64,000 bases of DNA from Polytrichum commune. Its lineage: Eukaryota > Streptophyta > Polytrichopsida > Polytrichales > Polytrichaceae. The DNA lies in contig OX485804.1 in the NCBI GenBank assembly GCA_950295325.1, positions 14,262,001-14,326,000 on the forward strand, written 5' to 3'. Both the position numbers and the translations under genes were made by a program. Below the pieces are notes generated by a model. The model was not told the DNA's origin, did no database searches, and was given only the letters and a program-made list of their open reading frames with translations. The stretch's first letter is position 1. Each line of letters opens with the position of its first letter. Positions 45,942-63,954 of the stretch are shown here, one piece after another.

Positions 45942-46269
45942 CAATCAAGTTATCTCTCACCGGTCTCTCAGTTGCTTTAGCTTTCAGTTGCATATGTTCG
46001 ATTCATTAGCATCCTAAATCTTGAGAGTCTTATTCCTCTCTTTTGTTGTGGGTTGAGTGCAGATTCGAGGGCTGTGTAGGAAATTTCTGTCAATTCGAGT
46101 TAAACCCTAGCAAATTGTAGGGTTGAGCTTGTAAGTTGTTGGGTCAATGTATGAGTAGATATTTGAGCCTTACATGTGCCTAAGATGGTGGAAGCATTGT
46201 CTTTGACATTATGTTAAAAAGGTTCTAAATTTTGTGGTTGATGAATTAATGTATGCAGGTGAATCAAGC

Positions 46270-46709
46270 TGTCACGTGAGGTGACATCGGGGCCTAAGTT
46301 ACGTCAATTTAGGAGTAAATGGACTCCATTAGGAGTCCATGTGTGTTGGGATGAGTAACGGACTCCATTGGGAGTCCTAGTTAGTTGTTCATCCACTCCA
46401 TGGATGAACTCCACATAGGATTGGGGTTGTATGGAGAGGAAGGCCTCTTGACTTGCCATTGTTGTCAAGTCAAGTCTTGTGAGTGTGTTTTGAGAGAGAG
46501 AGAGCTTGTTGTTGCTTTCTCATGGCTATGGTGTAGTAGATTATGAGTAAAGCCTTTGCATTCTTTCTCCACCACTTGCACTCTTGGATTCTCCCTTCGT
46601 GGAGTGAGAGATAGCTTGACTCTTGTGTGTGAATTTCAGAGTTTCTTAAGCTTTGTAAGAAGACATTTTAGTTTCTTAAGCTTGGAGAGAGAAACCCTCA
46701 TACTTGACA
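46270..46709 (+). repeat. 5' LTR
   Basis: 46270-46701 matches 61009-61440 with about five substitutions in 432 bp. The end is taken at TTGACA (46709), which pairs with the TGTC start. A longer LTR cannot be excluded, because the 3' copy changes sequence at this point. Confidence 0.75.
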
Positions 46710-47757
46710 ACAATGGCTCAAATTTTTCATTTTTGGTTGTATTTCTGAGCTAGAATGGCCCAGTAATGAGAGCATATGAGTGATACAAGTGTTTGAAAAC
46801 TTAGTTTGTCATTTCTTGCAACCCTCAAGAAGATTTTGAGAGAAATCTTCCCATTTTTCTTTTGTTGTCTCTTTGTATTTTCTTCAATTGTTGATGGTTG
46901 AATCTTGAGATTCCATTTAGTCTCAAGATTCTCAAGTCACATTTTCTTGCTTGCAAATTGTGGAAGCAAAGTTTAATTCAAACACAAACACAAACCAAAA
47001 TTAAAATCCAATTTGTTTTTAATTTTGGTTGAGCTCCGGACGGATCCGGAGCTCACCGGACCCTCTTGGAGCTCTTGGAGCTCCTGGAGCTCCAATTCTG
47101 GGAGGACCGGGGGCGGGCGGGCGGGCGCCAGCCAGGCCCTGGCAGGCACGTAAGGTAAGCCCTTACCTTTTTTCTTTTTCTTTTTAAAAAAAAATTGTTT
47201 TTTTTGTTTTGTTTAATTAAAACAAATATTTTTATTTTATTTTATTTTATTTTATTCACATTTTTACTTTCACCTTTCAAACTTGGCATCCAATTCTCAC
47301 AAACTTTGAGGTTCAAATTTGGGGGCATACTAGCTCCGATTGGAGTGAAATTTGAGCCTATCTTGTGTGAAATTTGCCAAGGAATCCAATGGTGTAATTG
47401 GATTGTTGATTGGAATTCAAAATCATTGCTGAAATTATTAATTTCAACGCTGATTTTTGTTTTTGGGAGCAAATTAACTCCGAACGGAGTGAAATTTGAG
47501 CCTAATTTGTGTGAAATCTTCCTAGGAGTCCATTGGTGCACTTAGTTTGTTGATTGGAGTCCATAATCACCTTGGAAATGAGCCTTTTCAACGCTGATTT
47601 TTCATTTTAATTACCAATCTCAAACCTTTGCACAATTTTGGAATTCTGGGGGCATAAACACTTGGCATTTGGCAAGGGATTGCCATTTAGATAGCCCGCA
47701 ACAGGTGCAGGTTGCCATTACCTTGTAGATAGTTGCAGGTACTCAAGTGATTATTTT
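46710..47757 (+). other. Leader between LTR and gag
   Basis: About 1 kb without a long open frame. No primer-binding site complementary to a common tRNA was recognised. It contains an imperfect duplication around 47330-47400 and 47475-47545 (GGAGTGAAATTTGAGCCTA in both). Confidence 0.5.
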
Positions 47758-49398
47758 ATGGTGCAAACTAGGAGCCGATATTATCGATCTCCATCACCAG
47801 ATTACTTGGAGGACGTGCATACCACAAATCTTGAGCCAGAGGTAGATACCAACGAGGCTTTTGAGCCTATTTCGGCGTTGGACACTACTAGTAGGCTTCG
47901 GATTTGGAGTGTCGGCACGTTCAACGAAATGGAGGACGATCGCCACAATTCAGTGCGTGATCGATTTTCAGGTCGAGCTGGGGGCATTTCCTTGCCCGAT
48001 TGGAAACTCCGGTTTCGTACCTGGATTAAGGAGAAACGCCAAAGGTCTTCCAATTTCAATGATTGGTATGCCTTTGAACTTCTGCCTCAACATTTGGAGT
48101 ATGAGGCACTCCAAACTTATGAACGCTGGACAGAGGGTCATCAGCGACAACTTCGGGAGGTGGAGCAGTATTGGGAGGCTCGGGTTGAGCTCATTTCAGC
48201 CCTTAAGGATGGGGCGGTTGCTACCTTAGCTCCACCCACCTTAAAGGAGGAGGAATCGCCGGCGGAGTCTAAGGACACGGAACTGGCACTTGGGCCAATG
48301 GTGGCTAGCAGTAGCACAGCAACCCTTTCACGGGTGGCACGTGCTACACAGGCAGCATTGACGGCTGTTGGTCCACCACCTCCGTTTAATCCCCTTACTG
48401 AATTTGTCGCACATTTGGAAGTGGAGTATGGTGGGTTTCAGCGAGACCAAATGCAGCGCATCCAGGATTTCCGCCGAGAGAAGGATGATACTCCACGGAC
48501 CATGTATACGCGACTCGCGCGATTTGCTGTGGAGTCGGGAGGTGTTTTTGTTGAGAGTCAGCTTGTTAAAATCTTTTTGTCTAAGATTGACAAGCGGCTA
48601 CTTGAGTTGGCATCACCTCGGATTATCCTCGACTACAAGGGCCGAGCTACGCTTGCACAAGCGTTTGCTGTGGTTGAGAGATGTGATCGGGCTCTTTGCC
48701 AACATGATGCCACGGATATGGTATCTTGGATGACAGAGAGTCCAAAACCAAGAAGAAATGTCACAGCTACTAGTAGTTTAGCTGAGACTCAACCCGTCAA
48801 GGAGCAAAAGATTTTGCATTGTTGGGGTTGTGGAGAAGCTGGTCATTCGAAGAATGATCCCAATTGTCCTAAGAAGAAGAAAACTCAGCCTTTGGGAAAA
48901 TTAAAACAAAAGATGGAACCAGTAAAGGCAGGGGACAATTCTAAGAAGAGACAATTGAAATGTAACCATTGTGGTGGCACTAATCACGATGTGGATCATT
49001 GTTTCCAACTTCATCCTGAGATGCGGCCTGCCAATTATGTCACTGGAAAGTCTCCAAGGGAGCAGAGTCTTGAGGCTAAGGTGGCAGAGCTTGAGCAAAA
49101 ACTCAAATCTTCTGCATCTTTTGCTCAAATTTCTGAGCCGCATGTGGGTGGTGGCACCTCGGGTTCGGACATGTATATGTTTGGAGCAGCTGGAGAGGTG
49201 GTGGCGGCGGTTTCTACTCGCTCACAAACATTGGCAGATGCGGTGGCTTCCACGAGTGGTGGTAGCAACGAGGTGCTACATCCTCGCCATGCCGGACCAG
49301 CTGATCAAATTGGTCAAGCACGTTTACCTCTTTCATTTGGATTGGTAGACACCACTGTTGTTGGGGCTAAAAACCCTATACCATTAGGAGTGAAATGA
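47758..49398 (+). CDS. gag: Gag polyprotein of the Ty3/gypsy element
   Basis: Structural protein that would form the virus-like particle and bind the RNA. 546 residues from ATG 47758, no internal stop. The central region (FNPLTEFVAHLEVEYGGF...) has the helical look of retrotransposon capsid. It is followed by two zinc knuckles, CWGCGEAGHSKNDPNC (C-x2-C-x4-H-x6-C) and CNHCGGTNHDVDHC (C-x2-C-x4-H-x4-C). A short C-terminal coiled coil (EAKVAELEQKLKSS) follows. The last codons and the TGA stop come from the inserted DNA transposon. Beyond it, the gag frame continues for 11 codons to a TAG at 54936. pol lies in the +1 frame relative to gag, so a frameshift would be required. Confidence 0.9.
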   Translation: MVQTRSRYYRSPSPDYLEDVHTTNLEPEVDTNEAFEPISALDTTSRLRIWSVGTFNEMEDDRHNSVRDRFSGRAGGISLPDWKLRFRTWIKEKRQRSSNFNDWYAFELLPQHLEYEALQTYERWTEGHQRQLREVEQYWEARVELISALKDGAVATLAPPTLKEEESPAESKDTELALGPMVASSSTATLSRVARATQAALTAVGPPPPFNPLTEFVAHLEVEYGGFQRDQMQRIQDFRREKDDTPRTMYTRLARFAVESGGVFVESQLVKIFLSKIDKRLLELASPRIILDYKGRATLAQAFAVVERCDRALCQHDATDMVSWMTESPKPRRNVTATSSLAETQPVKEQKILHCWGCGEAGHSKNDPNCPKKKKTQPLGKLKQKMEPVKAGDNSKKRQLKCNHCGGTNHDVDHCFQLHPEMRPANYVTGKSPREQSLEAKVAELEQKLKSSASFAQISEPHVGGGTSGSDMYMFGAAGEVVAAVSTRSQTLADAVASTSGGSNEVLHPRHAGPADQIGQARLPLSFGLVDTTVVGAKNPIPLGVK

Positions 49399-49844
49399 AC
49401 CCATAAAGGGGCCGCCTGACAATGCAAATTTGAACCCACTCACAGCCCGGGGAAGGCATCAAAGAGCAATCATGTTGCCCGGGCAACCTCTTGATCTAAG
49501 AAATCGACGGTCCAAAAAACTTATTTCGTTCGGGCAATCTGATAATGATTGAATGGCACAGTTGTTGGGATATCATTGTGGAGGCAGTGCTGGCATGGTT
49601 CTGTTCCCGCCCACGGTGACGTGTGCTCCTGACTGGCATGGGCTTCCCGCCAATGGTTCTAAGCGATGACTGGCATGAACTTCCCGCCCATGGTTCTAAG
49701 CGATCGATGACTCTTCTGGGCTGTGAGCGATCAACATCTTTGAGCTGATTTTTTGGTATGAGTTGAGCCTCGCTGATTCTCGCTGCAGTTTTTGTCAATT
49801 GGAATGCCAGTGTTGTTGTGAAGGTCTACTGTTATTGTTTAGAC

Positions 49845-52800
49845 ATGGTGCTTAGAGAAGCAGATCTTCCAACTATGTACAAAGCACAAGCGTCAATTGC
49901 TGCAAAGTATGCACCGCTTATCCAAAGAGGCAAGTTTCTTCATGAACAGGTCTCGAAGTCTGCATTCCCCGAGAAACGCAAATCAGGTCATACGAATATA
50001 GACCTTTGGTACGATGCTTCCATCTATCCAATAGATCCACGGACAGGGAAACGCCCACGATTTTCATGTTTGAAATCGCTTTTAGAATTTGTTGGAGATG
50101 GCGAGGACGGTCTGTTTGGCTACGTCAAAAGTCTAGAGTCACCAGGAGGTCAAAGTCATGAAAGTCGGTATCTCGTGGAGTCTTCATTGCTAAAAGAGCG
50201 AGTGCTTAACTTGCAGAGAGAAATCAGTGACCAACAATTACATGTGGAAGCAGTTCCAAGATTAGAAGAGAGAATAGTTTTTCTTGAGGCTGAGCGACTG
50301 TTAGTTGAGGAGCGACTGCAGGTTTTAGAAACACAGGTCGACGTTGAGAGGAAGGCAAGGGTGGACTGTGAAGAGGGCCTTGAGCGACATAAAACAACTC
50401 TGATAGAAAACCACAATTCAATACTACAATCAATCAAACTAGAGCTTTTGAAGACAAAAATAACTTTGAAACGTTTAACTGAAAAATTTAAGGGCCTACG
50501 GAAAACACCATTTGGATATCGATGTCAGGTTAGGCAGCGGAGAGATTTGTCCAGTTTGTCACAGACAGGAGGCCATGCTAAGGCTCAAAAAAGATTAGTA
50601 CGTATGCTTGTTGGACCGCAAACAGTGAGGAATGTCCAAGAGGAAAATGCGTCACAGGGAAGATCACAACGTCTGCATGGAGGTACTGCTTCACAAATGG
50701 AAGCTGGGCGGGTTTTTGCTAGTCTTTTGTCAAAAACTGAAGTCAATTCTTTATTGGAATCACCGAAGTTGTCCAATGTTGGCACAACGATGGTAAACCA
50801 TTATTTGGAGAAGATTGGGAAGTCAATGGGACCGGAGCATATCCTTGAAACATGTGATAGGAATGGCATCACCCACTCTGGGTACGATGCAATTTACAAA
50901 AGCTTTAAAGGTGTTGTGAAGGGCGTAGGAAAAGGGTTCCGAGTGGGATGCCTACCGAATCCCCATCAAGTGTCAAAGCTCCGACAAGAAATGAATTCTA
51001 AGCTGGAGGACATGATCGGAGAGCACTACCATATTGAGAACACCCTTGTCATTCCTCCCCCTGCAAAATCCAAATCTAAAGAGCCTGTGAAAATTGTCTT
51101 ATCAGCTCGGAATTCCTTCTTTGTCGATGTTGAAACTGTACAGAGGACGATGGCCAAGCTCTATGGAATAACAACTTCTGGTATGTCAACTTTTATGCTA
51201 ACACTGCTTTTATTTTTATTGAATGTTGTTGGACATTGTAAATGCCGAATTGTAACAGTCACTATATTCGTTAATTTGAGATTTTCTTTTGTCTCAAATT
51301 AATATATGTCTAATGTTTGGGTCGTCCTACCTAAACCATCTTGATATGAGTTCTTGATTGGGTTCTTGATATGAACACCTGATTCAAAGTGTTTGTATCT
51401 TACAACATACTCCAATACATATGTGATTTTATCCATGCTCTTATATTTGTAATTGTCTCAAAATGCCAAAAAAATCCCAAATTAACGAATATAGTGATAG
51501 TGGTATATTGTCTTTGCAGAAGTGGAAGGTGATCCGCTCATCTTTTGTTTGAAGCTAGATGAGGCGGAAATCATACATGGGCAGAAACTAGAGCGAGTTT
51601 CAATTACACTAATGAACCGTGCACTCAATCCAGCCATCAAGCCAGGTTCTGTAGAGTATTTTTCAGTTCAGTCAGAGCGTGAGATTTGGCCCATTGCCAG
51701 TTTTCAAGTTGCAAAGGAATCACACCAAGTGTTAGATTGGGTATTTAAACAGACATCGATTCCTACCTTGATAGAGGCTCAAGAGGATGGAAAAAAACTT
51801 GAGGTACCAGGAGTTGGGGAGTTCCGAGTCCAGTGGCACATGGCAGCTGATATGAAGACCATAAAGTGCATGTACGGCCTTCAACACGGTGCTAATAGCC
51901 GCTTCTCTTGCATCTACTGCCTACAGGAAAGAACGAAACCTATTGTAACAACAGTTGCAGCAGCAACAACTATGCTTACCAAGCGTGGAAGCTCCTGGGA
52001 CGGGGGTTTGTTTTCCAGGAATCACCATTCCAAACCAATTACTGGATCTCGAAGTATGGGCCGCTGGAAACCTGTGTTGAAAATTCCCATGGACCGCGTC
52101 CACATATGCACATTGCATGCCATGAATAGAATGGTTGAAAAGATTTTGCACTTACATTTCATGTTCTTATGGACAATCAGGGACAAACATGTACAAGCCT
52201 TAGCAATTGACCTCATGCAAAAGATTATTTCTTCCACGGGAGCTCACGGAGGCAATGTAATTATTTTCAAGGACCCTGAGTTGTCCGGAAAATCTAATTC
52301 CGTGCCAAATAAACCCAGCTTGAGCGGTGCCAATTGCAGCAAGTTGTTTAAACCAAGTACCCTAGAGGGTGGGTCCGACAAGTTGTGGAAAGATGTAGTC
52401 AACTCAACGAAGAATCTTCTAGATGGTGGAGATGCGAAAAGGCTACAACTAGAGATGTGGGCATCATTGGATGATTTGCGGCAATATTTTAGTTCTGCCC
52501 TCACATTATCTGATGATCAACGCCATCACTTTAAAGAGAAAGTCGAGCACTGGGGTCGGCTGTTCATACGTTGCTTTGGTGAGCAACACGTGACGCACTA
52601 CATGGTGAGTATGACTAACCCGCTAATTTGTTTTATCAACTTCGTATAGTAACATACTGAGGACAAGGTTTCTTGTGCAGCATGTCATAATAAAACATGG
52701 ACCATGGTTTGTGGACGAGTACGGATCTCTCTCCGTCTGGAGCTGCCAAGGAATGGAAAACTCGCACCATGCTGCTAAGGCAACTTATCATCGCCATACT

Positions 52801-53052
52801 CAACATTCAGGCGGGATTTCCAGAAAAAATGCACTACACCAGACCTTTGAGCATTGGTATCGCATAATTCAACATAGATTCCGCAACAAGGAGTTACAGG
52901 AAAGTGAGGTACAAACACCACAGTCAAGTGAGGATATGGCCGAAGCATTGGCGACGAGACGAGCTCGCACCTTTTCCTCAAGCGCTGCTGCTCATTGGGC
53001 AGAGTGGCGGGCTAACTGCACTCGGCAAGGATCCCGTTTTGTCCCAAACTAG
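49845..53052 (+). CDS. Transposase-like protein of an unnamed DDE-type family, three exons
   Basis: Exons are 49845-51180, 51520-52604 and 52681-53052, with GT-AG junctions in phases 1 and 0 and about 930 codons without internal stops. Start is the first in-frame ATG; an upstream exon is possible. The N-terminal third has a heptad-rich coiled coil (about 50170-50480). The C-terminal half has HMAADMKTIKCMYGLQHG, then SCIYCL, a Cys pair likely binding metal, and near the end MENSHHAAKATYHRHT. This layout recalls uncharacterised transposases in cnidarians and other invertebrates (an acidic residue before LxxxLGL, then a CxxC). A catalytic role is inferred from position and resemblance only. Intron 1 contains a MITE. 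Confidence 0.6.
51260..51496. mobile_element. MITE with CACTATATTCG ends, in intron 1 of the transposase
   Basis: 237 bp. Starts CACTATATTCGTTAATTTGAG and ends CCCAAATTAACGAATATAGTG. The 11-bp end is the same as the TIR of the 16.2-kb element at 17,507-33,743, so it may be mobilised by that element's transposase. Target duplication is unclear. Confidence 0.8.
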
Positions 53053-53202
53053 ATACATTGAACAATTTGGAGTCTCTTAGGGGGCATCACCTCCTCCGTA
53101 ATTTGCTTATTTTCATTACGCCTGTTGATCTTCAAAACATTTTGTATGAATATATTGTTCCAACATTGACTCTATTCTCCAACAGAGCATGATCTCAAAG
53201 AT

Positions 53203-53379
53203 CACTATATTCGTTAATTTGAGATTTTCTCTTGTCTCAAATTAATATATGGACCACAACAACATGGTCTAATGTTTGCATCTTACAACATTCTCCAATA
53301 TCGGTGTGATTTTATCCATATTCTTATATTTGTAATTGTCTCAAAATGCCGAAAAAGTCCCAAATCAACGAATATAGTG
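53203..53379. mobile_element. Second MITE with CACTATATTCG ends
   Basis: 177 bp. Ends match the copy at 51260-51496, with a similar interior (GTCTCAAATTAATATATG and ATTGTCTCAAAATGCC). It lies between the two convergent genes of the 5.5-kb transposon. Confidence 0.8.
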
Positions 53380-53399
53380 ATAAAGACATGGCAAGAAAT

Positions 53400-54881
53400 T
53401 CAAACCTTATGTGCTGGAAGTCCATCTTGAACAACCCACAATTCAAATTCCTCTGGCACAATTGCTCCAAGTGTAACACAAATCTCTTGCCGCACATTTG
53501 AGATTGTCCAGTTTCTGCCCACTTCGACCTCACCCTGCCATTCTTCAAATTCGCACATAACTTTTATGACATCGATGGGTCCACATTGGTCCATAAGCTC
53601 CCAATTGCCTACTACACAACGCTTTCTATTGTAACTGAAGTTACAATATAAAATCGATCGACCAATGTGAAATCGAAAGAGAATGGATAGCCGATCCACC
53701 ATACACTTTATGATATCATCCCCAATTGTCACCTTAGTGTCCCAACCACAATCCATGAGAGACGACAACAATTCTTCCGAGATGTCTTTGAACACAAAGA
53801 ATGTCATTGTCCTGTGAATGTTGGAGGCGTCTGAAAATAAATCAACAAGCACATGAATTGGCATCCACCATTGCAGATGCGTCTGCTTGCTACCCATATT
53901 GGGTCTCATCGATTGGAGAAAATCAGTGCGCATACGAGCCCGAAATGACTCTGTGGTATCCATATCCGGCAGAGGCCACGAAGGATCATCAAAGGCAGGT
54001 AGAGGAATAGATTCCAAACTACCGAATTGTTCTTGCCCTACTCGTGGGTGATAGTATGCGTTATAAAAGAACAAACTATCCTGCAAGAGTTCCTTGTGTG
54101 TGCGGCAACCTCGACCTGCCTCGCCAATATCCGCATGGACAACGTTGATCGGACCGGTTATGCTCTTAGCATCAATCCAGTCCTCATAACGTGAAGGATA
54201 CAAATCTGTCAAGCACAACAAATAAATGAAAACGTAAGTTTGAAGAATCTAAAGACAAACTAACATTGAATCACACTCCGAGTAGGGATCACATAGTACT
54301 TACAGTTGCAACCACATTGTGCTACATGAAGAGCTGGGTTCAAATCCAATTGCCTCATCATATACGCATGTTGAACTCGCACTTCACTAACAACCGATGA
54401 GCCTGGTTTCACACGAAACTGCAAGATTCAAGCCTTGTAATCACCGTCAACACTACTGTTTTTATGCTTCTTAGCGTCCCGTGCATGGCCGCCCTGTTTC
54501 CCAGGCATTAGCATCACCCACGAGTGTACCTCATACTTCTGCGGTATCCACTCACCCTCAGTGTCTCTCACATTATACAACATAACAGCTTGAATAGATG
54601 ATCGCGGTCTCATCTTTCATGGTTTCGTACACAAAAAAGAATCGTTTACGAAAATTGCTTGCGGAGCTCACACAAAGCTCACACAAAGCTTCCAACCTTC
54701 CACTGACTTCGTTGGGAAGTTGAAAGTTGTTCTGTTGGCGCTCTAATGACAAACCAAGTGTTACTTTTTCATTCACTCTTTGTAGCGGAAAAAACTCTTT
54801 GTAATGATAGCGTCCTTGTGTGTCACCTTGTTTGATCCTGTTGTTAGTCCTACTCAGTGGCCTCAATGCTAGGCTGTACAA
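53400..54881 (-). pseudogene. Accessory protein of the 5.5-kb transposon, function unknown
   Basis: Minus-strand gene convergent with the transposase. The 3' exon runs from an acceptor at about 54207 to about 53400. The upstream exon runs to a donor at about 54300 (GTAAGTAC) and joins in phase 1. In that upstream exon an in-frame TGA lies at about 54428, and the frame changes near 54,600 between the segments read as FVYETMKDETAI and IQAVMLYNVRD. The protein has a Trp-rich middle (THLQWWMPIHVLVDLF) and a Cys-containing motif AQCGCN. No family was recognised. The pairing with a transposase recalls the second genes of Harbinger or MuDR elements. Confidence 0.45.
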
Positions 54882-54906
54882 TAATCATTATGGGTTGGGC
54901 AGGTGA

Positions 54907-56265
54907 AAATTGGTGGGAAAACTGGAAGCCCTTTGTAGGGTCCATTCCACTCCTAATGCTTTGAGAGATGGGGATTCCATCTCGAAGGATGTTACGCAGG
55001 CATTGGCATATAAAATTCTCCATATGCCAATTTTCTCGGGTTCGGAATTTATGGCTTCGGATTTCAAGCCTGCTGCAGTTTTTCATTTAGCTGGGAGAAT
55101 GTTAGAAGGTAAGGCGGATTTGCCATCCCTTCAAGTATCCCAAGCTGTGGTTGACGTACCTGTGGCTGAGGAGGTGGAGGACTTAGCCAATTTGCGAGCG
55201 AGTCTTGCGGATGCGGCAATCATTGCTTTTGGTAAGCACACTGATATTCCTCCAGCATCAATTTCAGCAGTGGATACGTCATTTTCGAATTATGCGTCGG
55301 GAGTGGCATATCTTGCAGACATTTCTGCAAGGCCTGCTCGCGAACGGCATAATTTGCAATCTGGAGTTGTACGGCTGATGAACGACAAATCTTTGTTTGT
55401 CGTTTCACGCACAGATATGCCCACTATCCGTGCTACACCACTGAGAATTATGATGGATTCCGGTGCTCAACCGGTTATGATTGGCAAAAGACTTGCTGAC
55501 AGTCTTGGATTGACGCCAGCAAGCTTGGATCCTTGTCCATTCACTATTGTAACTTCAGTAGGGGGCACTGAACGTACAACAGGTTACACCAAGGCACCTC
55601 TACGTTTGATTTTTCATGTGGGGGCAGGGCCTACTTACACTCATTTGTCAATGAAATGTGTTGTTACTAATGCTACCAACTATGATATACTTGTTGGTCA
55701 GCAAGCTCTTTACCCACTTGGCTTTGGTTTGGATAATTGGACGGAAGAGGCATGGATTAGACCGGGATGGTCCACTGGAGATGGCAGGAAGGTATTTATT
55801 CCCGTCACATTTGTAGCCACTGCTATGATTATGGTTGCGGAGGCAATGTTTGGTTGCAGCGGTTCAGTTGCAGATTTGTCTTGTGCTCCAGTTTTATTGG
55901 AGGAAACAATGGACTACACTTGTAATGCGGCAGAACAACAATTTTTACCATCTTTTCAAATTCATGCTCGACATTTCAAGGATCCACCTCCACCATGGCG
56001 AACTCCTAAGGAATTATCCGACCATTGTCAACACATTGTAGCGGATTTGGAGCTTGGAGAGGCACCTCCAACTTCATCCTTATTTTCTTTTGCTCAACCC
56101 ATTCGTTGGCAACCATCACCTGAAAGTATTGTCCTTGTGGAGATCTTTGGAGGCATTGGCACAGGTTTGGCGGCAGTGTTGGAAGCTGGAATTACAGTTT
56201 GGCGATATATTCATGTGGACAATGGGTATGCAGCCAACAAAGCCGTCCGACACCACATCCAATAA
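54907..56265 (+). pseudogene. pol: pol part 1: protease and start of C5-methyltransferase
   Basis: The frame opens after TGA at 54904-54906, +1 relative to gag. The retropepsin is marked by RIMMDSGAQPVMIGKRLADS (catalytic Asp codon at 55456) and by DILVGQQALYPLG. About 230 residues later the methyltransferase begins: IVLVEIFGGIGTGLAAVLE is motif I (AdoMet binding, nt 56128-56184) and YIHVDNGYAANKAVRHH is motif II. A single in-frame TAA at 56263-56265 interrupts the domain, and coding continues in the same frame directly after it. The motif I form (GGIGTG) resembles the DNMT3-like GxxTG type. Confidence 0.85.
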
Positions 56266-57051
56266 TTGTTGTTGAGATACCCCGTACAATTGTCAGCCTC
56301 TGCCATTCATGGATGTTGTGGTCAACTTCCTCAAGATGTCACTATGATTAGTGATGAGGATTTGAGAAGGTTGGGCCACGTGAATTTGATTATTGCAGGA
56401 TGGCCTTGTCAAGGCCATTCGCGGGCAGGAACTGGCCAGGGATTGGACGATCCTAGGTCTAGTTTGTTTGCGGATTTGATGCGATTGACGCAATGGTGGT
56501 TTACCCACCAATCAACTCCGCCAAGGTACATTTTCGAAAATGTACCATTATTGGGTGATATCCGGCACAAAGTGGTGAAAGATGGTGAGTACATTAACCA
56601 AATTCTGGGTACTCCAACATTTCTGGATGCTGCATCTTTGGGATCCTTTGCTCATCGGCCTCGTTGGTTTTGGACCAGCTTGGTATCACCTCGGGTGCTT
56701 TCAGCGGCGATTGCCCGCATTCCCCGCCTTATGGATCGCAAGGTGGATGACATTTTAGATGATCATCGTGTTTCCTTGGCAGTTACCAAGGATGACACCT
56801 TGTCATTTGCATTAATTAACAAGGTGGGCATTCCGAGAGGTGCACTACCTACTTTTGTGACATATCCACAGTCTTTTGCATTTCGATTTCGTGGACCTGG
56901 CATGGTTTGGGATTCAAAATCCCAAACTTATGAGGAGCCTACGGCAGATGAGCGGGAACGCGCCATGGGTTTTCTTACAGGTACCATGGCTGCTCACGGG
57001 CTTCAGGAAAGGTCAGAGACGTTTCCTATTGGGGCAAACTATGAATCTTAA
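56266..57051 (+). pseudogene. pol part 2: C5-cytosine methyltransferase core
   Basis: Cytosine-5 DNA methyltransferase, which would transfer methyl from S-adenosylmethionine to DNA. Motif IV is IIAGWPCQGHSRAG, with the nucleophilic Cys codon at 56407-56409. Motif VI is YIFENVPLLGD, with Glu at 56536. Motif VIII-like is HRPRWFWTSL. A target-recognition-like region follows, then DERERAMGFLTGT and motif X. Motif order I, IV, VI, VIII, X is canonical, not permuted as in plant DRM enzymes. A frame change at about 57,010-57,025 moves motif X (FLLGQTMNLNS) into the next frame, so the domain extends to about 57,100. It sits between protease and reverse transcriptase. Retrotransposon methyltransferases have been reported in charophytes and dinoflagellates. 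Confidence 0.85.
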
Positions 57052-57099
57052 TAGCATTGTGTGGATAATTGGAATTTGTCTTGCTGCTCAACAACGTAT

Positions 57100-57444
57100 G
57101 GATGACCAATTGCTTACTCTGAGGGCAGAGAACAATGGTCAGGGGGCAATGGAGCCGCAATCCAAGGATCACATTGAGGTCAATGACACCGAGGGATTAT
57201 TTCCTTTGAAACTTCATGTTGCGGAAGAGCTTCGAGCCCAACGTGTTTTTCGGCTTTGGCCCAAGAGTTTGGGAAGTTGGAGGCCCATAAAATGTTTCCA
57301 CTTCTATTTTTTGGTGATACTTCATATGTGGGTAGCTATTTAGCTACACAAACTGATTGTAGTGGAGAGGATACGCATTTGGATTCAAGTGCAGATGATG
57401 GGGGCAAAGGTGTTGCCCTCTCCACGGACTAGCAATCACAGGCT
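57100..57444 (+). pseudogene. Linker between methyltransferase and reverse transcriptase
   Basis: The frame opened by the change near 57,015 continues to about 57,290 (LLTLRAENNGQGAMEPQ...). There another frame change returns to the original frame (FFGDTSYVGSYLATQTD). TAG at 57430-57432 interrupts it. No domain was recognised; it is an acidic linker. Confidence 0.6.
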
Positions 57445-58265
57445 GTGCTGGCACCAAGTGGCAATCCTTCTATGAAGAAGGAAACCACGGAGTTTGACGA
57501 TTGGCCAATTGAAGTGGGGCCAAAGCTTACTGGTGCTGAAGCACGAAAGGTACGGGCATTTATTCGCTCTTACCGTAATTGTTTTGCCTTTAGTCTTCAT
57601 GATCTTGAAGGATATAAAGGTAAACCTGTTCGTATTCAACTCGAGGACGACCACCCCATTTTTAGACCACCGTACAGACTTAGTACCTCTGAAAGGTAGG
57701 GTGTTCAAACTCGATGTCAAGAGTTATTGGCAGCGGAATTGATTGAACTCTCCAATGGAGAGTATGCTTGTGCCACGGTTATACCGTCAAAGAAGGATAT
57801 CTTTGGCAACTGGACGGAAAAACGGATGTGTGGTGATTATCGTCCAGTCAACCGCAAGACCAAGTCGGATCGATATCCAATGCCGATGCCGGAGGAGTTA
57901 TTTGATGCACTGGAATTTTCTAGAATCTTCAGCACTCTGGATTTGAGGTCTGGTTATCACCAATTACCTTTGTTGTTGGGTGATCGGGTGAAGACCGCAT
58001 TTTGGGGAATTGATAAAGATGGCAAGGATCAACTTTATCATTGGAAATTTCTGTCATTTAGTCTCAAGAATGCACCAGCTGAATTTCAGCGGGTGATGGA
58101 CCAATTATTGGCTGGTTTGTCATTTGCTAGATGTTACATTGATGATGTTATCATCTTTAGTAATAGTCCACAAGATCATGTGAGACATTTGCAAGCGGTA
58201 TTTGAACGACTTCAACGGTGGGGACTCCGTTTACATCATAGAAAATGTAAGTTTTCCATGATCAA
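57445..58265 (+). pseudogene. pol part 3: reverse transcriptase
   Basis: RNA-directed DNA polymerase of Ty3/gypsy type. Visible blocks are PIFRPPYRLS, MCGDYRPVNRKTKSDRYPMP, FSTLDLRSGYHQL (first catalytic Asp), LSFSLKNAPAEFQRVMD and CYIDDVIIFS (YIDD catalytic box, about nt 58,133-58,160). An in-frame TAG lies at 57697-57699. A frame change occurs at about 58,250 in a short T run just before the thumb (PYLGHMIVPGG). Confidence 0.92.
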
Positions 58266-58892
58266 TTGCCCTATTTAGGCCACATGATTGTTCCTGGCGG
58301 TCTTGGTGTGCAACAAGCGAAGGTGGATGCTTTGCACAAAATTCCCGTACCTAGTGATGTACCACGGCTTCGTGCATTTCTAGGATTGGCAAATTATTAT
58401 AGGAGGTTTGTCAAAAACTTTAGTTTGATTGCCAAACCTCTTACCATTCTCACGGGGAAAGATCAACCATGGATTTGAAGTCGGGAACAACAACAGGCAT
58501 TTGATACATTGAAGCAGAGGCTTGGTTCAGCGCCAGTGCTTCGACGCCCGGATGTGTCTAGAGCTTTTCAATTGCACACGGATTGGAGTGCAGTGGGATT
58601 GGGAGCGGTATTGACACAGAAAGATGAAGAGGGAAATGAATATGTGGTGGCTTATGCATCTAGAAGCAATAATAGTGTTGAATCTAATTATTCTTCTTAT
58701 GAAGGCGAGGCCTTGGCGGCCATTTGGGCCATTAAACATTTTCGACCTTATTTGTATGGGCAAAAGTTTACTTTGGTGACTGATCATCAGCCTTTAAAAT
58801 GGCTTACGGAATCAGATAAGCTCACCGGAAAACTTGCAAGGTGGGCATTATTACTTCAGGAATATGATTTTGAAGTTGTTCACCGAGCATGA
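58266..58892 (+). pseudogene. pol part 4: reverse transcriptase thumb and RNase H
   Basis: Continues with LRAFLGLANYYRRFVKNFS. RNase H follows, with FQLHTDWSAVGLGAVL (Asp), SYEGEALAAIWA (Glu) and TLVTDHQPLKWL (Asp), ending at FEVVHRA. In-frame TGA stops lie at 58476-58478 and 58890-58892. Confidence 0.9.
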
Positions 58893-59240
58893 ATTGCCAA
58901 CTTGGATGCAGACGGATTGTCTCGCAATCCAAGTCCTTCAGATGAGGATTTAACTGGAGCCATGTGGCATGGAGATTGTGATCGTGAGGCAGTGTCGGGT
59001 TGGCATGCTGCCACATATCTCACAATGATGTCGGGATTGGCTGCTGAGATCCTTGTAGAAGAACAAGATGAGGAGGTTGATAAATCTCTCGTTGTCAGTG
59101 ATGTGTGGGAAGACCAGGCGGTCTTGCACAAACTTCAATAAGGGATATTTCCTCTTGGGCTATCTGCTATGGAGCGAGATAGAATTAGTCACCGGATAAC
59201 AAGGTTTCGTTGGGCAAACAGCTTGTTATTTCGTGTGTAG
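58893..59240 (+). pseudogene. pol linker between RNase H and integrase, with stops
   Basis: Same frame as RNase H (LDADGLSRNPSPS...). TAA at 59139-59141 and TAG at 59238-59240 interrupt it. No separate domain. Confidence 0.8.
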
Positions 59241-60393
59241 CCGAACGGAACGAGGCGCATCGTTCCAAGGCCAGATCAAAGAGCTTCTTTGGTGCGGCAA
59301 ATGCACGAGGAGCTTGGACATTTTGGAGTGCGAAAGACGCACTCTATGTTGCACAACCAATATTGGTGGACTGGTATGTATCAACAGGTTGCCACTTATA
59401 TTTATCGGTGTGAAGTATGTGACCGGGTCAGGTCAAGTTTTAATACTTTGTCACCTCAACTTCAGTCTTTACCTATTATGGGCTTGGGATATCGTTGGTC
59501 TTTGGATTTTGCCGGACCGCTTACTATCACTCCACGTGGTTCCAAGTATGTGTTTGTGATGGTGGAGCATTTTAGTAAGTGGATTGAACTCGTGGCTCTT
59601 CCCCAAAATTCCTCAGAATTGGCGGCTATGGCATTTCTTGATCGAGTTTTGGCACGGTTTGGAGCACCTGCAGAGGTGTTGACGGATCAAGGGAGAGAAT
59701 TCCTTGGATCTTTCAAGGCTTTGTGTACCAAGGCTTTGATTGATCATCGGACAACTTCCAGAGATCACCCTGAGGCAGATGGCTTAGCTGAACGAGTTGT
59801 TCAGACGGTTAAGCGCGGTTTGCGGAAATATGGATTGCTTCATGGCAACCATCGCGATTGGGACTTGATGTTACCATGGATAGCAATGGGTTATCGTTTC
59901 AGCAGGCAAGCATCTTTGGCATCCTATAGTCCTTACCAACTCTTGTATGAACGGGAACCAATTTTACCTAGCTCGGTGCGAGAGAAATTGGCTCCCGTGG
60001 TAAACTTGGATGATCCAGATGTTTGGGCTCAATGTCTTCATGACCGAGCAACATTCTTCCAAAAGGCCATGCCTATGGCTATGGAGAACTTAAATATTGC
60101 TCAACATCGTGATACATTACGGTATGTCTGGATCCGCAGTGGAGCTTATCGACCTCAGGTTCGTAGATTTCCCAAGGGGAATTATGTTTACTTGCAACGG
60201 GAGGCACCTACGACATTGGATGTCAAGGCTGGGCGCACGATTTTGCGGGTAAAAGATGTCTTGCCAAGTGGTATATTATTGCTTGAAGGCAAGGATGGAC
60301 GGGAATGTCGTGAGCATTCAAAGAATTGTGCTCCATGTCACCTTCCCATCGACGGCTCTGTGCATCCCGAGTTGGCGGTTGTACCACAGGATT
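59241..60393 (+). pseudogene. pol part 5: integrase
   Basis: Inserts the cDNA into the host genome. The HHCC zinc finger is HEELGHFGVRKTH...YRCEVCDRV. The DDE core shows YRWSLDFAGPL, VLTDQGREFLGS and SRDHPEADGLAERVVQ. The C-terminal region (RRFPKGNYVYLQRE...) is the GPY/F-like part that follows the core in gypsy integrases. No stop after 59240. The open frame runs on into the PHD finger, with no chromodomain seen. Confidence 0.92.
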
Positions 60394-60575
60394 TGCCTTG
60401 TTATGTTTGTGGAGAGAAGAAAGGAGCTGTAACAATGTTATTGTGCGACCAATGTCAACGTGGATGGCACATGACATGTTTGACACCTCCCCTTTTTATT
60501 CTTCCTTCTGGCAATTGGGTTTGTCCTCGTTGTCGGAAAGCCTCTCATTTTGTGGCCGTTAATGGTCATGATTGA
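60394..60575 (+). other. PHD finger fused to the integrase C-terminus
   Basis: CYVCGEKKG...LLCDQCQRGWHMTC...NWVCPRCRK gives the full C4-H-C3 pattern of a PHD finger, including the conserved Trp before the last Cys pair. PHD fingers bind the tail of histone H3, often according to the methylation state of Lys4. At the end of an integrase it could steer insertion, as chromodomains do in chromoviruses; that role is inference. The frame ends at 60573-60575. Confidence 0.88.
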
Positions 60576-60900
60576 GAATTTTGTGGATGTTTACCACATG
60601 TTTTAGTGGTGAAGTTGTTATTTAGTTGGTTGGAAATTTTATGGAATTAAGACCACATTGAAAGAGTTATCCAAGAATTCAACATTAATTGTTGAAGGCG
60701 ATTAAGGATGGGGCTCACATTGCACCCAGCCTACAGTTCTTGGATTACTTTGTCAATCACGAGTTTAATTCCTTCGATTACTACTACCCAATTAAATATG
60801 TATAGATGTAGCAACAACTTCATCATGTTCAACAACTCTACCGATGAGTGTGTTTGTTCCTAGCCGATTGGAGGGGCTCCTTATCTGCTAGTGGGGGCAC
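60576..60900 (+). other. Non-coding region between pol and the 3' LTR
   Basis: No open frame. A purine-rich stretch (AGTGGGGGCAC, about 60889-60900) may be the polypurine tract, but it lies about 110 bp upstream of the TGTC start of the 3' LTR. Confidence 0.5.
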
Positions 60901-61548
60901 TTGAAGAGGTGGTTGTTTAGCATTTTAGTTTGCTATTTTATTTTGCTAATTGATGTTGACAACGACACTCGATCTGTTGTATTTAACGATCTTAGTTTAC
61001 ACGACAGTTGTCACGTGAGCTGACATCGGGGGCTAAGTTACGTCAATTTAGGAGTAAATGGACTCCATTAGGAGTCCATGTGTGTTGGGATGAGTAACGG
61101 ACTCCATTGGGAATCCTAGTTAGTTGTTCATCCACTCCATGGATGAACTCCACATAGGATTGGGGTTGTATGGAGAGGAAGGCCTCTTGACTTGCCATTG
61201 TTGTCAAGTCAAGTCTTGTGAGTGTGTTTTGAGAGAGAGAGAGCTTGTTGTTGCTTTCTCATGGCTATGGTGTAGTAGATTATGAGTAAAGCCTTTGCAT
61301 TCTTTCTCCACCACTTGCACTCTTGGATTCTCCCTTCGTGGAGTGAGAGATAGCTTGACTCTTGTGTGTGAATTTCAGAGTTTCTTAAGCTTTGTAAGAA
61401 GACATTTTAGTTTCTCAAGCTTGGAGAGGGAAACCCTCATCTTGAAGAGGTGGTTGTTTAGCATTTTAGTTTGCTATTTTATTTTGCTAATTGATGTTGA
61501 CAACGACACTTGATCTGTTGTGTTTAACGATCTTAGTTTACACGACAA
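60901..61548 (+). repeat. 3' LTR with a flanking 107-bp direct duplication
   Basis: 61009-61440 is the counterpart of the 5' LTR. It is bracketed by two copies of a roughly 107-bp segment starting CTTGAAGAGGTGG (60901-61006 and 61441-61548), both ending TTACACGACA and differing by two or three bases. The join GACA-GT-TGTC at 61003-61012 looks like two LTR ends placed head to tail. Confidence 0.8.
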
Positions 61549-61808
61549 AGCACTTCAAGATTGATAGTTTGATTGGGTATTAGTGGTTTGATTGCATTAT
61601 GCTTATATTCACATGTCATATATGACATAACATAATTGATATTTGTATCATTTTTTTAATTTAAAAATGTTATTTTTAGAACCCGTCCAAAGTGAATTTG
61701 ACACGTCCCAAAACCGGTTCATTTTCTAAGAACCCGTCCACTGGAAATGTTTTTTTTTTATGAACATGTCCCTAGACATGTTAGGGACCTTGTGAAAAAA
61801 CACCCCTG
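61549..61808. other. Right arm of the hAT-like element
   Basis: 260 bp of A+T-rich sequence with ACCCGTCC/CCCAAAACCGGT words also present in the left arm, ending in the TIR. No coding capacity. Confidence 0.8.
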
Positions 61809-63010
61809 CTCACAGGGTTACTCCTAATGCTATTTTGCTGCAGTAACATACTCTAAAGCAAATCTTTCAAGTGGTTACTATGGAAAGACTTAGGGTATGT
61901 TCATAAGAACGTTTACCATTTTTGACCAACTCTCATCTGGTCAATCAGACTCCATAAGTAATAGTCTCTGTAGTCATATAGTTATACAACATTATTATGT
62001 TGAAATTCCACAGTACTGTAGTTGTAACATACCTCATATAGTCAGTGTATGTACTGAATCTGTATATCCTTATCATCTGTGTTTGACTACCTCAACAGGT
62101 TATCGAAGCATGTAATAAGTATGAGTATAGTCATAATTATTTAACATGTCTCTCGTATATGATCATATTCAAAGAAACTTCAGGTGCAAGGATCCATGAA
62201 GTTTCCTTTTCTGCATCAATCCAGTAAACCAAGCTCTCACAGGGTTACTCCTGATGCTCACAGCATGGTTCTGAATCTTATTATTTAGAAAGGTCTTTAT
62301 TTCGCCTAATCAGCAAACCAATTTTAAGTATGAGTATCTTCACAGATTTGCTGCAGTCACATACTCTGAAGCAAAAATCTCAAGTGGTTATTATGGAAAG
62401 ACTTAGGGTGTGTTCCATAAGAACTTTTTCCTTTTCTAACCAGCTCTCGTCTGGTCAATAAGACTACATAAGTAATAGTCTCTGTAGTCATATAGTTTAT
62501 ACATCATTATTATGTTGAAATTCCTCAGTACTATAGTTGTAGCATACCTCATATAGTCAGTGTATGTACTGAATATGTATATCCTATCATCACAGTTCGA
62601 CTAACTCAACAGGTTATCGAAGCATGTAATAAGTATGGGTATAGTCATAATTATTCAACATATCTCTCATATATGATCATATTCAAAGAAACATCAAATG
62701 CAAGGAACCATGAAGTTTCCTTTTCGATTCAGTAAACCAAGCTCTCACCAGGTTACTTCTAATGCTCACTGCATGGTACTGCATTTTATTATTTCGTCTC
62801 ATCAGCAAACCAATGAGTATCTTCACAAATTCGTTGTAGTAACATACTCTGAAACAAATCTCTCAAGTGGTCACTATGGAACGGCTTAGGGTGTGTTCCA
62901 TAAGAACCTTATTTCCTCTCTGACCACCTCTATTCTGGTCAATAAGACTACATAAGGAATAGTCTCTGTAGTCATATAGCTATACAACATTATTATGTTG
63001 AAATTCCCCA
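61809..63010 (+). repeat. Tandem repeat units of about 430-510 bp
   Basis: Units start near 61,811, 62,236 and 62,747 with CTCTCAC(A/C)(A/G)GGTTACT. Each contains CTCAAGTGGTTA, ACTTAGGGT, TAGTCTCTGTAGTCATATAG and ACATTATTATGTTGAAATTCC. The part left of the hAT-like element (45,050-45,316) belongs to the same array. Open frames are short and not conserved between units, so they look non-coding. Confidence 0.8.
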
Positions 63011-63954
63011 GTATTTGTCAGATTATATTGGTAGCAAATAACAAGCATGGAAACAGATCAGAATATCGCTGCATTGTTTTAACGGCCATAACAAGTTCTT
63101 ATTACCCGTCTGTCATAGCAGGTATATGTATCCATCAATATGTAGAGTGTATATACTGTTTGTCATCAAGAAAGCTAAGCTCATGGTCAGTATTTCAAAT
63201 TTCAATGAGAAATTTCTTGGGAAATAGCCATGAGTGGACAATTCTTCGGAAGGTGCTCAGCACTTGTAGAAGAGGTCTTCACCTGTGCCCATGCTCCCCA
63301 CAATTACAAGAAAAGTTAGTAGAGCGTACATCAGGTGTCAACGGACCTCTTACTTGTTATCGATGTCAACAAGTCTATACATCTTCCTTGGAACTTATAA
63401 AATATTCAATATCATCTACATATAGTTGCATATATTGAAACTGTTCTTGAAACAAAAATTGGGTAAAATCAGATAGTAGCTGGATTTCCCCTGTATTTCT
63501 ATTCATTCTCAAGTGTCATCTGTGTAGTTGTGCAACTCTTTAGAATAACACCTTGAAGTCACTGTCGGGTGAGCTCTTCTTGCTCATCTTGATGCAACTT
63601 TTCGTACTAGAACTTGTGTGAACCCTGTCTCCAAAGCTTGATTGAATTGCTATGAAGCAGGTAATCAAATTACACGAATACTGCAGTAAGTGTATCACTG
63701 TTTATTCTATGATCGACTGTTCACAGAGCCTTCAAAGCTTTCACGCTCATCTCGCAGTCTATCATCCTACTTGCATCGGCTGATTGCTGAGGAACTTTCT
63801 TGAGCAACTACTTTCAGGGCCTGACTCATTAGGCCGAGGGTGACTCTGCATTGACAGACTTCACCCTTATGTATCGGTTCTTATATAATATTGTAGTTTG
63901 TCTCATTTTCGGGCAGCCCGTAAGAAATTTTACGTAACCCGTACTTTCAGAGTT
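63011..63954. other. Non-coding, no gene recognised
   Basis: An open frame at 62995-63438 has no recognisable product, and its start overlaps the repeat array. Nothing else was seen. Confidence 0.4.

Follow-up and report, generated by a model that had tools for sequence, protein, structure and literature searches.

We describe a high-copy family of Ty3/Gypsy-type retrotransposons in Polytrichum commune, represented by a copy at positions 46270-61547 of a 64,000-nucleotide stretch of contig OX485804.1 (the window; positions 14,262,001 to 14,326,000 of the forward strand, assembly GCA_950295325.1). Its members carry gag, protease and a DNMT3-type C5 methyltransferase in a first open reading frame (ORF1), and reverse transcriptase (RT), RNase H, a DDE integrase and a terminal PHD finger in a second (ORF2). 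Our overall reading, to which we assign a probability of about one half, is that of a Ty3/Gypsy-type family with a packaged methyltransferase, an integrase-PHD part reached by readthrough of a UAG stop, and insertion of circles at a palindrome where two repeat segments, B and A, meet. As a rule, retrotransposons are on the receiving end of DNA methylation; members of this family encode a writer of that mark themselves, together with a probable chromatin reader, and both are maintained by selection. A preliminary description of the window, limited to 54907-60575, had seen a single pol polyprotein with a methyltransferase between protease and RT and a PHD finger after integrase. Both domains lie where it placed them. 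The single polyprotein was not borne out, as the window copy is interrupted by stops and a shift of frame, and in related copies a stop divides the coding sequence into two frames.

The methyltransferase (56125-57084, plus strand; coordinates transferred from residues 952-1271 of ORF1 in the long-frame relative L013) gives a PF00145 match at 56266-57048 (E=4e-11). Its translation contains EIFGGIG (56140-56160), PCQ (56404-56412), ENV (56536-56544) and RPR (56656-56664), which we take to be motifs I, IV, VI and VIII. Motif X, also claimed in the preliminary description, is found in relatives, where motifs I to X follow one another in unpermuted order, but the window copy is out of frame from about 57010 to 57250, motif X included. 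The three residues of PCQ, the glutamate of ENV and the arginine of AHR are invariant in 14 of 14 aligned rows. By profile and fold scores the enzyme is of DNMT3 type: profile comparison gave E=2.5e-21 for DNMT3 against 3.4e-13 for DRM and 1.8e-8 for HaeIII, and every one of the top 50 Foldseek rows listed is a DNMT3 entry. An origin from DRM was rejected on its lower profile score and because DRM is permuted. A bacterial origin was likewise set aside, HaeIII and HhaI scoring lower by profile, though HaeIII ties with DNMT3 in a single-sequence search. CMT and DNMT1 are absent from the 55 matches of the profile comparison; this does not by itself establish distance from either.

The integrase (59289-60380, plus strand) comprises an H2C2 zinc domain (PF17921, E=1.1e-14), a DDE core (rve, PF00665, E=5e-14) and a C-terminal domain seen in a structural model. 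It is followed at 60399-60533 by a C4HC3 PHD finger (PF00628, E=1.1e-9, residues 371-415 of the frame 59289-60575), whose eight zinc-ligand positions are each conserved in at least 90% of 50 rows; a ligand is lost in L025 (the PHD histidine) and in five listed relatives. The order protease-RT-RNase H-integrase, with a DDE enzyme, is that of Ty3/Gypsy elements. Chromoviruses carry a chromatin-binding module, the chromodomain, at the integrase C-terminus; here a PHD finger stands in its place, and a Pfam scan of three copies (L013, L025 and L001) detected no chromodomain. The same scan of ORF1 and ORF2 found no tyrosine-recombinase family, rve being present. The nearest solved PHD fingers by sequence include those of CHD4, PHF12, Lid/KDM5, BHC80, UHRF1, KAT6A and DPF. 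A model of the integrase tail and PHD finger (predicted local distance difference test score, pLDDT, 79.8, mostly above 90 in the PHD part; predicted template-modelling score, pTM, 0.45) matched the fold of PHF1 first, with BHC80, UHRF1, BAZ2A and ATXR5 among the further matches. The structure titles for UHRF1 and BAZ2A name unmodified histone H3, and several of the neighbours BHC80, UHRF1, KDM5/Lid and CHD4 are known readers of it.

That the two domains belong to one element, rather than being neighbours by accident, is apparent from their distribution. Profile searches of the genome of the window (408 Mb in 64 contigs, seven of which measure 42-78 Mb) returned at least 123 scored methyltransferase matches (PF00145) and at least 150 scored PHD matches (window PHD as query). 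For 53 of the 123 listed methyltransferase matches, the PHD list contains a match on the same strand no more than 8 kb downstream; in 50 cases the distance is 3.86-4.06 kb. The mean over 200 shuffles was 0.19 such pairs and the maximum 2, which excludes chance pairing. Twenty copies were fetched from the methyltransferase list, 19 with an open frame of at least 1325 aa as listed and one, L029, with 1220. Methyltransferase, RT and integrase sequence is present in all 20, and a PHD finger lies within the fetched stretch in 19; for L029 a listed PHD lies 1.3 kb beyond the fetched end, presumably in the same copy. Selection in the reverse direction took eight copies for their long PHD frames, none of which had a match in the methyltransferase list; all eight proved to have methyltransferase sequence upstream, partial in one and seen in another after extending the stretch. 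An apparent absence in L067 was rejected, as the domain is carried by L068, upstream of it. Both copy sets were selected for long frames, so that decayed copies are under-represented. Within this genome the two domains thus recur together in intact copies, as the preliminary description had proposed to check. From the integrase side, 45 of 120 listed matches extend at least 65 residues past a C-terminal motif; 39 of these fit the PHD pattern (tyrosine allowed for histidine), five are PHD-like with a lost ligand and one ends prematurely, while the 75 that were dropped could hide PHD-less lineages. The possibility raised in the preliminary description that the methyltransferase is a separate insertion was rejected: it has no borders of its own and lies inside an open frame of 1356-1386 aa in 18 of the 20 copies. 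By methyltransferase identity to the window, the copies form three subfamilies, at 91-94% (L029 at 79%), about 60% and 43%. Many are broken, the window's among them.

The ends of the element bear on its manner of insertion. In the window, repeat A1 (46270-46707, plus strand, beginning TGTCACG; aligned to L013) precedes the body, and B1 (60900-61006), A2 (61009-61440) and B2 (61441-61547, ending CACGACA) follow it on the same strand; A1 and A2 are 98.6% identical, B1 and B2 98%. The whole is enclosed by identical target-site duplications, AAGC, at 46266-46269 and 61548-61551. This order, A1-body-B1-A2-B2, with the internal CACGACAGCTGTCA intact, holds in 15 of 19 testable copies; L010, L012 and L020 are A1-body-B forms with a duplication, and L027 is rearranged. 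A perfect 4-bp duplication surrounds TGTCA...CACGACA in all 19 testable copies and in the window (L029 is outside this test), and A1 begins TGTCA in 20/20 fetched copies. No B was found upstream of A1 in any of the 20 upstream stretches, so the body is not flanked by two complete long terminal repeats (LTRs). The element ends are the halves of a palindrome, GACA-GC-TGTC, which is intact inside 15 copies: the internal B1/A2 junction (61003-61012) reads GACAGCTGTC in these and GACAGTTGTC in the window copy. The genome contains 149 occurrences of the 14-mer CACGACAGCTGTCA and none of its reversed control. Directly 5' of B1 lies a purine-rich tract, AGTGGGGGCA (60890-60899, plus strand); five copies, drawn from three subfamilies, show it at the same position. 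In 7 of 12 copies no difference separates A1 from A2 along the 214-434 bases compared, which suggests recent activity; the family was probably active until recently. A partial duplication inside A1 of L014 recurs in its A2, as copying of both repeats from one template would produce.

We tentatively interpret the element as an LTR retrotransposon that is circularly permuted and uses circles as its inserting form. Its DDE integrase would recognise a palindrome within the repeat and not the termini generated by reverse transcription, each copy keeping one uncut B1/A2 site, and the element would combine a Gag-level DNMT3-type writer with an integrase-bound PHD reader, such that pre-methylated complementary DNA (cDNA) is placed in chosen chromatin; we regard this full account as plausible rather than probable. 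Plus-strand synthesis would be primed at the tract before B1 and yield an ordinary linear LTR-body-LTR molecule with the LTR formed by B-A, whose joined ends would constitute the A2/B2 junction. The integrase would cut one of the two palindromic B/A sites and insert with a 4-bp duplication, and the uncut site would persist in the new copy as B1/A2. Joining the ends of such a (B-A)-body-(B-A) molecule and opening one B/A palindrome produces exactly A1-body-B1-A2-B2; a one-LTR circle opened at its single B/A site produces A1-body-B, and both forms are observed. On the protein side, most Gag-side molecules would carry the methyltransferase, which would be packaged in the particle and methylate the new cDNA; a minority of ribosomes would read through the UAG into the enzyme part, and the PHD finger, occupying the place of the chromovirus chromodomain, would tether the integrase to nucleosomes, most likely at H3 tails unmethylated at K4. 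This order of parts gives separable predictions, with the methyltransferase at Gag level and the PHD finger only on the integrase. A precedent for the cutting step comes from foamy virus, whose DDE integrase acts in vitro on the palindrome of two-LTR circles, cleaving each strand after CA (PMC1180852). The foamy-virus palindrome is an LTR-LTR joint, while that of the present element lies inside the B-A repeat and its cutting is something we infer. For the methylating step, the precedent is that retrotransposon DNMTs as a group can methylate CG de novo (PMC5890265). The combination of DIRS-like repeats with a DDE integrase and target duplications is relevant to the dispute over whether circular cDNA serves as a substrate for integration.

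A replication route of the DIRS/PAT type, with the same composition of the element, is possible if doubtful. RNA would run from A1 into B2, the missing ends would be rebuilt on an internal B1-A2 template or splint, and the circle would be integrated by the DDE integrase. The repeat order A1-B1-A2-B2 is the PAT order (PMC4157794), with split direct repeats around the body in that group, and the intermediate proposed for DIRS-1 is circular, with a complementary region inside it (PMC5633606). The A2/B2 joint is moreover uniform within each subfamily in 13 of 14 copies (L019 differs), which a templated DIRS-like route and end joining explain equally well. The purine-rich tract that directly abuts B1 in three subfamilies is not required by such a route, and the tyrosine recombinase that PAT-group elements carry (PMC4157794, PMC5633606) is replaced here by a DDE integrase (rve) with 4-bp duplications.

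The preliminary description saw in the pair of domains an echo of host DNMT3 proteins. On such a view the two would act together as a DNMT3-like reader-writer and methylate chromatin around insertion sites. This we consider unlikely. The methyltransferase is indeed nearest to DNMT3, the PHD finger is near those of BHC80, UHRF1, KDM5/Lid and CHD4, several of them readers of unmodified H3, a parallel to the logic of the ADD domain, and both domains occur in the fetched copies. They reside, however, in different primary products, separated by a stop as well as by RT and integrase, and the reader is fused to the integrase. Writer and histone reader thus do occur together in one retrotransposon, as had been emphasized, but not in one primary product, and the suggested echo of host DNMT3 proteins is not borne out in that form, the reader being a PHD finger rather than an ADD domain. 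As the PHD finger sits on the integrase, a role in the choice of insertion site would be the more direct interpretation.

The division of products depends on how ORF2 is expressed. In 18 of 20 copies ORF1 has an uninterrupted length of 1356-1386 aa (the exceptions being L028, with an in-frame stop within the methyltransferase, and L029, which ends at 1220 aa). ORF2 is open over 1037-1048 aa in 13, and 12 have both open; in open copies the two share a frame and are one stop apart. The stop is TAG followed by CARYYA in 19 of 20 contexts (L010-L028 and L001) and in the window (57430-57438, plus strand, with CAATCA as 3' context). The exception, L024, has a frame shift at the end of ORF1 and an earlier stop in another frame, then TAGCA; L029, whose ORF1 ends early, is outside this set. 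CARYYA is the wider form of the readthrough consensus, and the hexamer varies across four divergent groups (CAATCA, CAACCA, CAATTA and CAGCCA) yet continues to fit it. UAG followed by CAA-UYA is the readthrough context of the tobacco mosaic virus type (PMC2754532). Fifteen ORF1-length protein clusters (P0226-P0240), of 34 relatives listed, end 0-49 residues past the match to the ORF1 tail and never enter ORF2. The PHD finger is thus probably borne by the rarer, readthrough product, to judge from this sequence context. Expression of ORF2 through re-initiation, or from an mRNA of its own or a spliced one, instead of readthrough appears improbable to us: there are in-frame ATGs within ORF2, and in some gene models of Marchantia the methyltransferase is continuous with RT or integrase, a result that splicing would give, but the UAG is in phase, its hexamer stays CARYYA while the letters change between subfamilies, and the first ORF2 ATG varies by subfamily (codon 13, 116 or 4).

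Comparison of the subfamilies indicates that both added domains are under purifying selection. Where finite, the between-subfamily ratio of nonsynonymous to synonymous substitution rates (dN/dS) is 0.10-0.14 for the methyltransferase and 0.035-0.094 for the PHD finger, against 0.44-0.76 for the spacer after the methyltransferase; dS is near saturation at this distance, so that the contrast weighs more than the values. Passive cargo, captured by accident and now in decay, is a very improbable description of the two domains. In its favour one may cite the many broken copies, the window's included, and within-subfamily dN/dS values that are noisy and based on few changes (maximum 0.84 in the methyltransferase, 0.61 in the PHD finger); against it stand the contrast with the faster spacer, the residues invariant in 14/14 rows, and the open frames and identical A repeats of recent copies.

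Several observations weigh against our reading as a packaged-methyltransferase, readthrough and circle-inserting element. Motif IV of DNMT3 is PCN, where the element has PCQ in 14/14 rows (ECQ in the relatives P0252 and P0163). The excess of C-to-T changes in the window copy is only mildly biased by context (CG 21/436, CHG 16/409, CHH 64/2135) and gives no clear footprint of CG self-methylation. That the PHD finger reads H3 unmethylated at K4 we infer from its sequence and fold neighbours only. The pairing of the two domains is not universal, since P0252, a full-length metagenomic relative, has methyltransferase and integrase without a PHD finger; the co-occurrence found in the fetched copies of this genome does not extend to it. 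A universal UAG stop was likewise rejected: nine of the 34 listed relatives (P0245, P0246, P0249, P0251, P0252, P0253, P0255, P0256 and P0259) continue from methyltransferase into RT or integrase sequence, P0252 covering nearly all of ORF2, so the stop is a trait of only part of the wider family. Several of these are Marchantia or Sphagnum gene models and possibly spliced, but P0249, P0252, P0255 and P0256 are unnamed or 'hypothetical' archive entries. Inspection by eye recognised no primer site of the tRNA type after A1. To these points must be added the uniform A2/B2 joint, and the A1-body-B forms, for which recombination of B1 with B2 is another possible origin.

Host DNMT3 and DRM proteins differ from the element in having PCN rather than PCQ; the genome's own DRM-like gene piece (L069, G000:C2:4702400-4705400, minus strand) is permuted, its ENV-bearing part preceding the part with motif I and PCN. 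Among the closest known mobile elements is KnitGypsy-Dnmt3 of Klebsormidium nitens, described by de Mendoza et al. in 2018, which likewise has Gypsy domains and an unpermuted DNMT3-related methyltransferase in its Pol region, under purifying selection, and whose repeats are called 'the same as that of a DIRS retrotransposon' (PMC5890265). A Gypsy element with a DNMT3 enzyme and DIRS-like repeats is thus already known, and the preliminary description rightly placed the window's element in this charophyte class. The main text of that paper contains neither 'PHD' nor 'readthrough', and its sole 'TSD' concerns a LINE. Relative to that main text, the present family adds a PHD finger behind the integrase, whose pairing with the methyltransferase was checked across copies, a UAG stop of leaky type, target duplications of 4 bp around ends that form a palindrome, and further hosts, with protein relatives in Marchantia and Sphagnum; the figures or supplements of the paper may already show some of this. 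SymbioDIRS-Dnmt3 (PMC5890265) shares a DNMT3-type methyltransferase and A-body-B-A-B repeats, but uses a tyrosine recombinase rather than a DDE integrase and belongs to another superfamily. The leaky UAG of the tobacco mosaic virus type shares the CAA-UYA that follows the stop, and rice gypsy elements, with RIRE2 as the example, include readthrough candidates (PMC2754532); our element differs from these in that protease and methyltransferase already lie ahead of the stop, its readthrough being predicted from context. A literature search by titles and abstract openings found no PHD finger in an LTR element; a Culex paper with matching words refers, in the passage concerned, to a neighbouring host gene.

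Relatives of the integrase-PHD part were found in Klebsormidium (the K. nitens proteins P0004 and P0026), Calypogeia and Marchantia and among many unnamed proteins, those of ORF1 in Marchantia and Sphagnum; the host range of protein relatives thus takes in liverworts, peat moss and a streptophyte alga. One Marchantia model, P0079, combines methyltransferase pieces, integrase and PHD finger in one protein. A nearly complete methyltransferase-PHD retroelement, L001, lies on a contig (CADCWO010000201.1) filed as a Synechococcales metagenome-assembled genome (MAG), and P0121 bears the name of a protein from an Obscuribacterales MAG; both are probably eukaryotic contamination of bacterial bins. Scans of viral contigs with both element proteins returned no relative.

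The window copy itself extends well upstream of the start considered earlier, 54907, which falls within a nested insertion (49382-54958) foreign to the element, whose site is uninterrupted in L013. Truncation at the 5' end was rejected, as the gag part and A1 are located upstream of the insertion. The first part of ORF1, gag, occupies 47195-49385 (plus strand), with the tblastn match of residues 1-564 of L013 ORF1 at 47695-49386 (94.5% identity); CCHC knuckles are readable in relatives, with PF00098 in L025 at E=0.0038, below its cut-off. The second part, broken in this copy, holds linker, protease, methyltransferase and spacer (54959-57429, plus strand; residues 559-1386, 86%). From 54959 to 61547 the alignment to L013 shows 97.4% identity. 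The profile check proposed in the preliminary description matched, besides methyltransferase, PHD, H2C2 and rve domains, the aspartic protease (55418-55760; PF13650, E=2.9e-5, just over its cut-off), RT (57703-58278; PF00078, E=1.1e-25) and RNase H (58509-58889; PF17917, E=1e-39), all on the plus strand. ORF2 (57433-60575, plus strand; tblastn and Pfam) is interrupted by a frame change near 58254, and stops occur at 56263, 57049, 57430 (the conserved UAG), 57697 and beyond.

The nested 5.6-kb insertion has 31-nt imperfect terminal inverted repeats (81% complementary) beginning CATTAGGAGTG and contains internal direct repeats. Its frames at 49818-51299 and 51522-52646 gave no Pfam match up to E 0.1, and comparison with the uninterrupted L013 site revealed no clear target duplication. 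Elsewhere in the window, a MULE transposase domain (14828-15829; PF10551, 3.2e-10) and a DUF7869 protein (31752-33338; PF25273, 9e-40) perhaps mark other mobile elements, and tandem-like copies of about 500 bp lie directly downstream of the element at 61817-63013.

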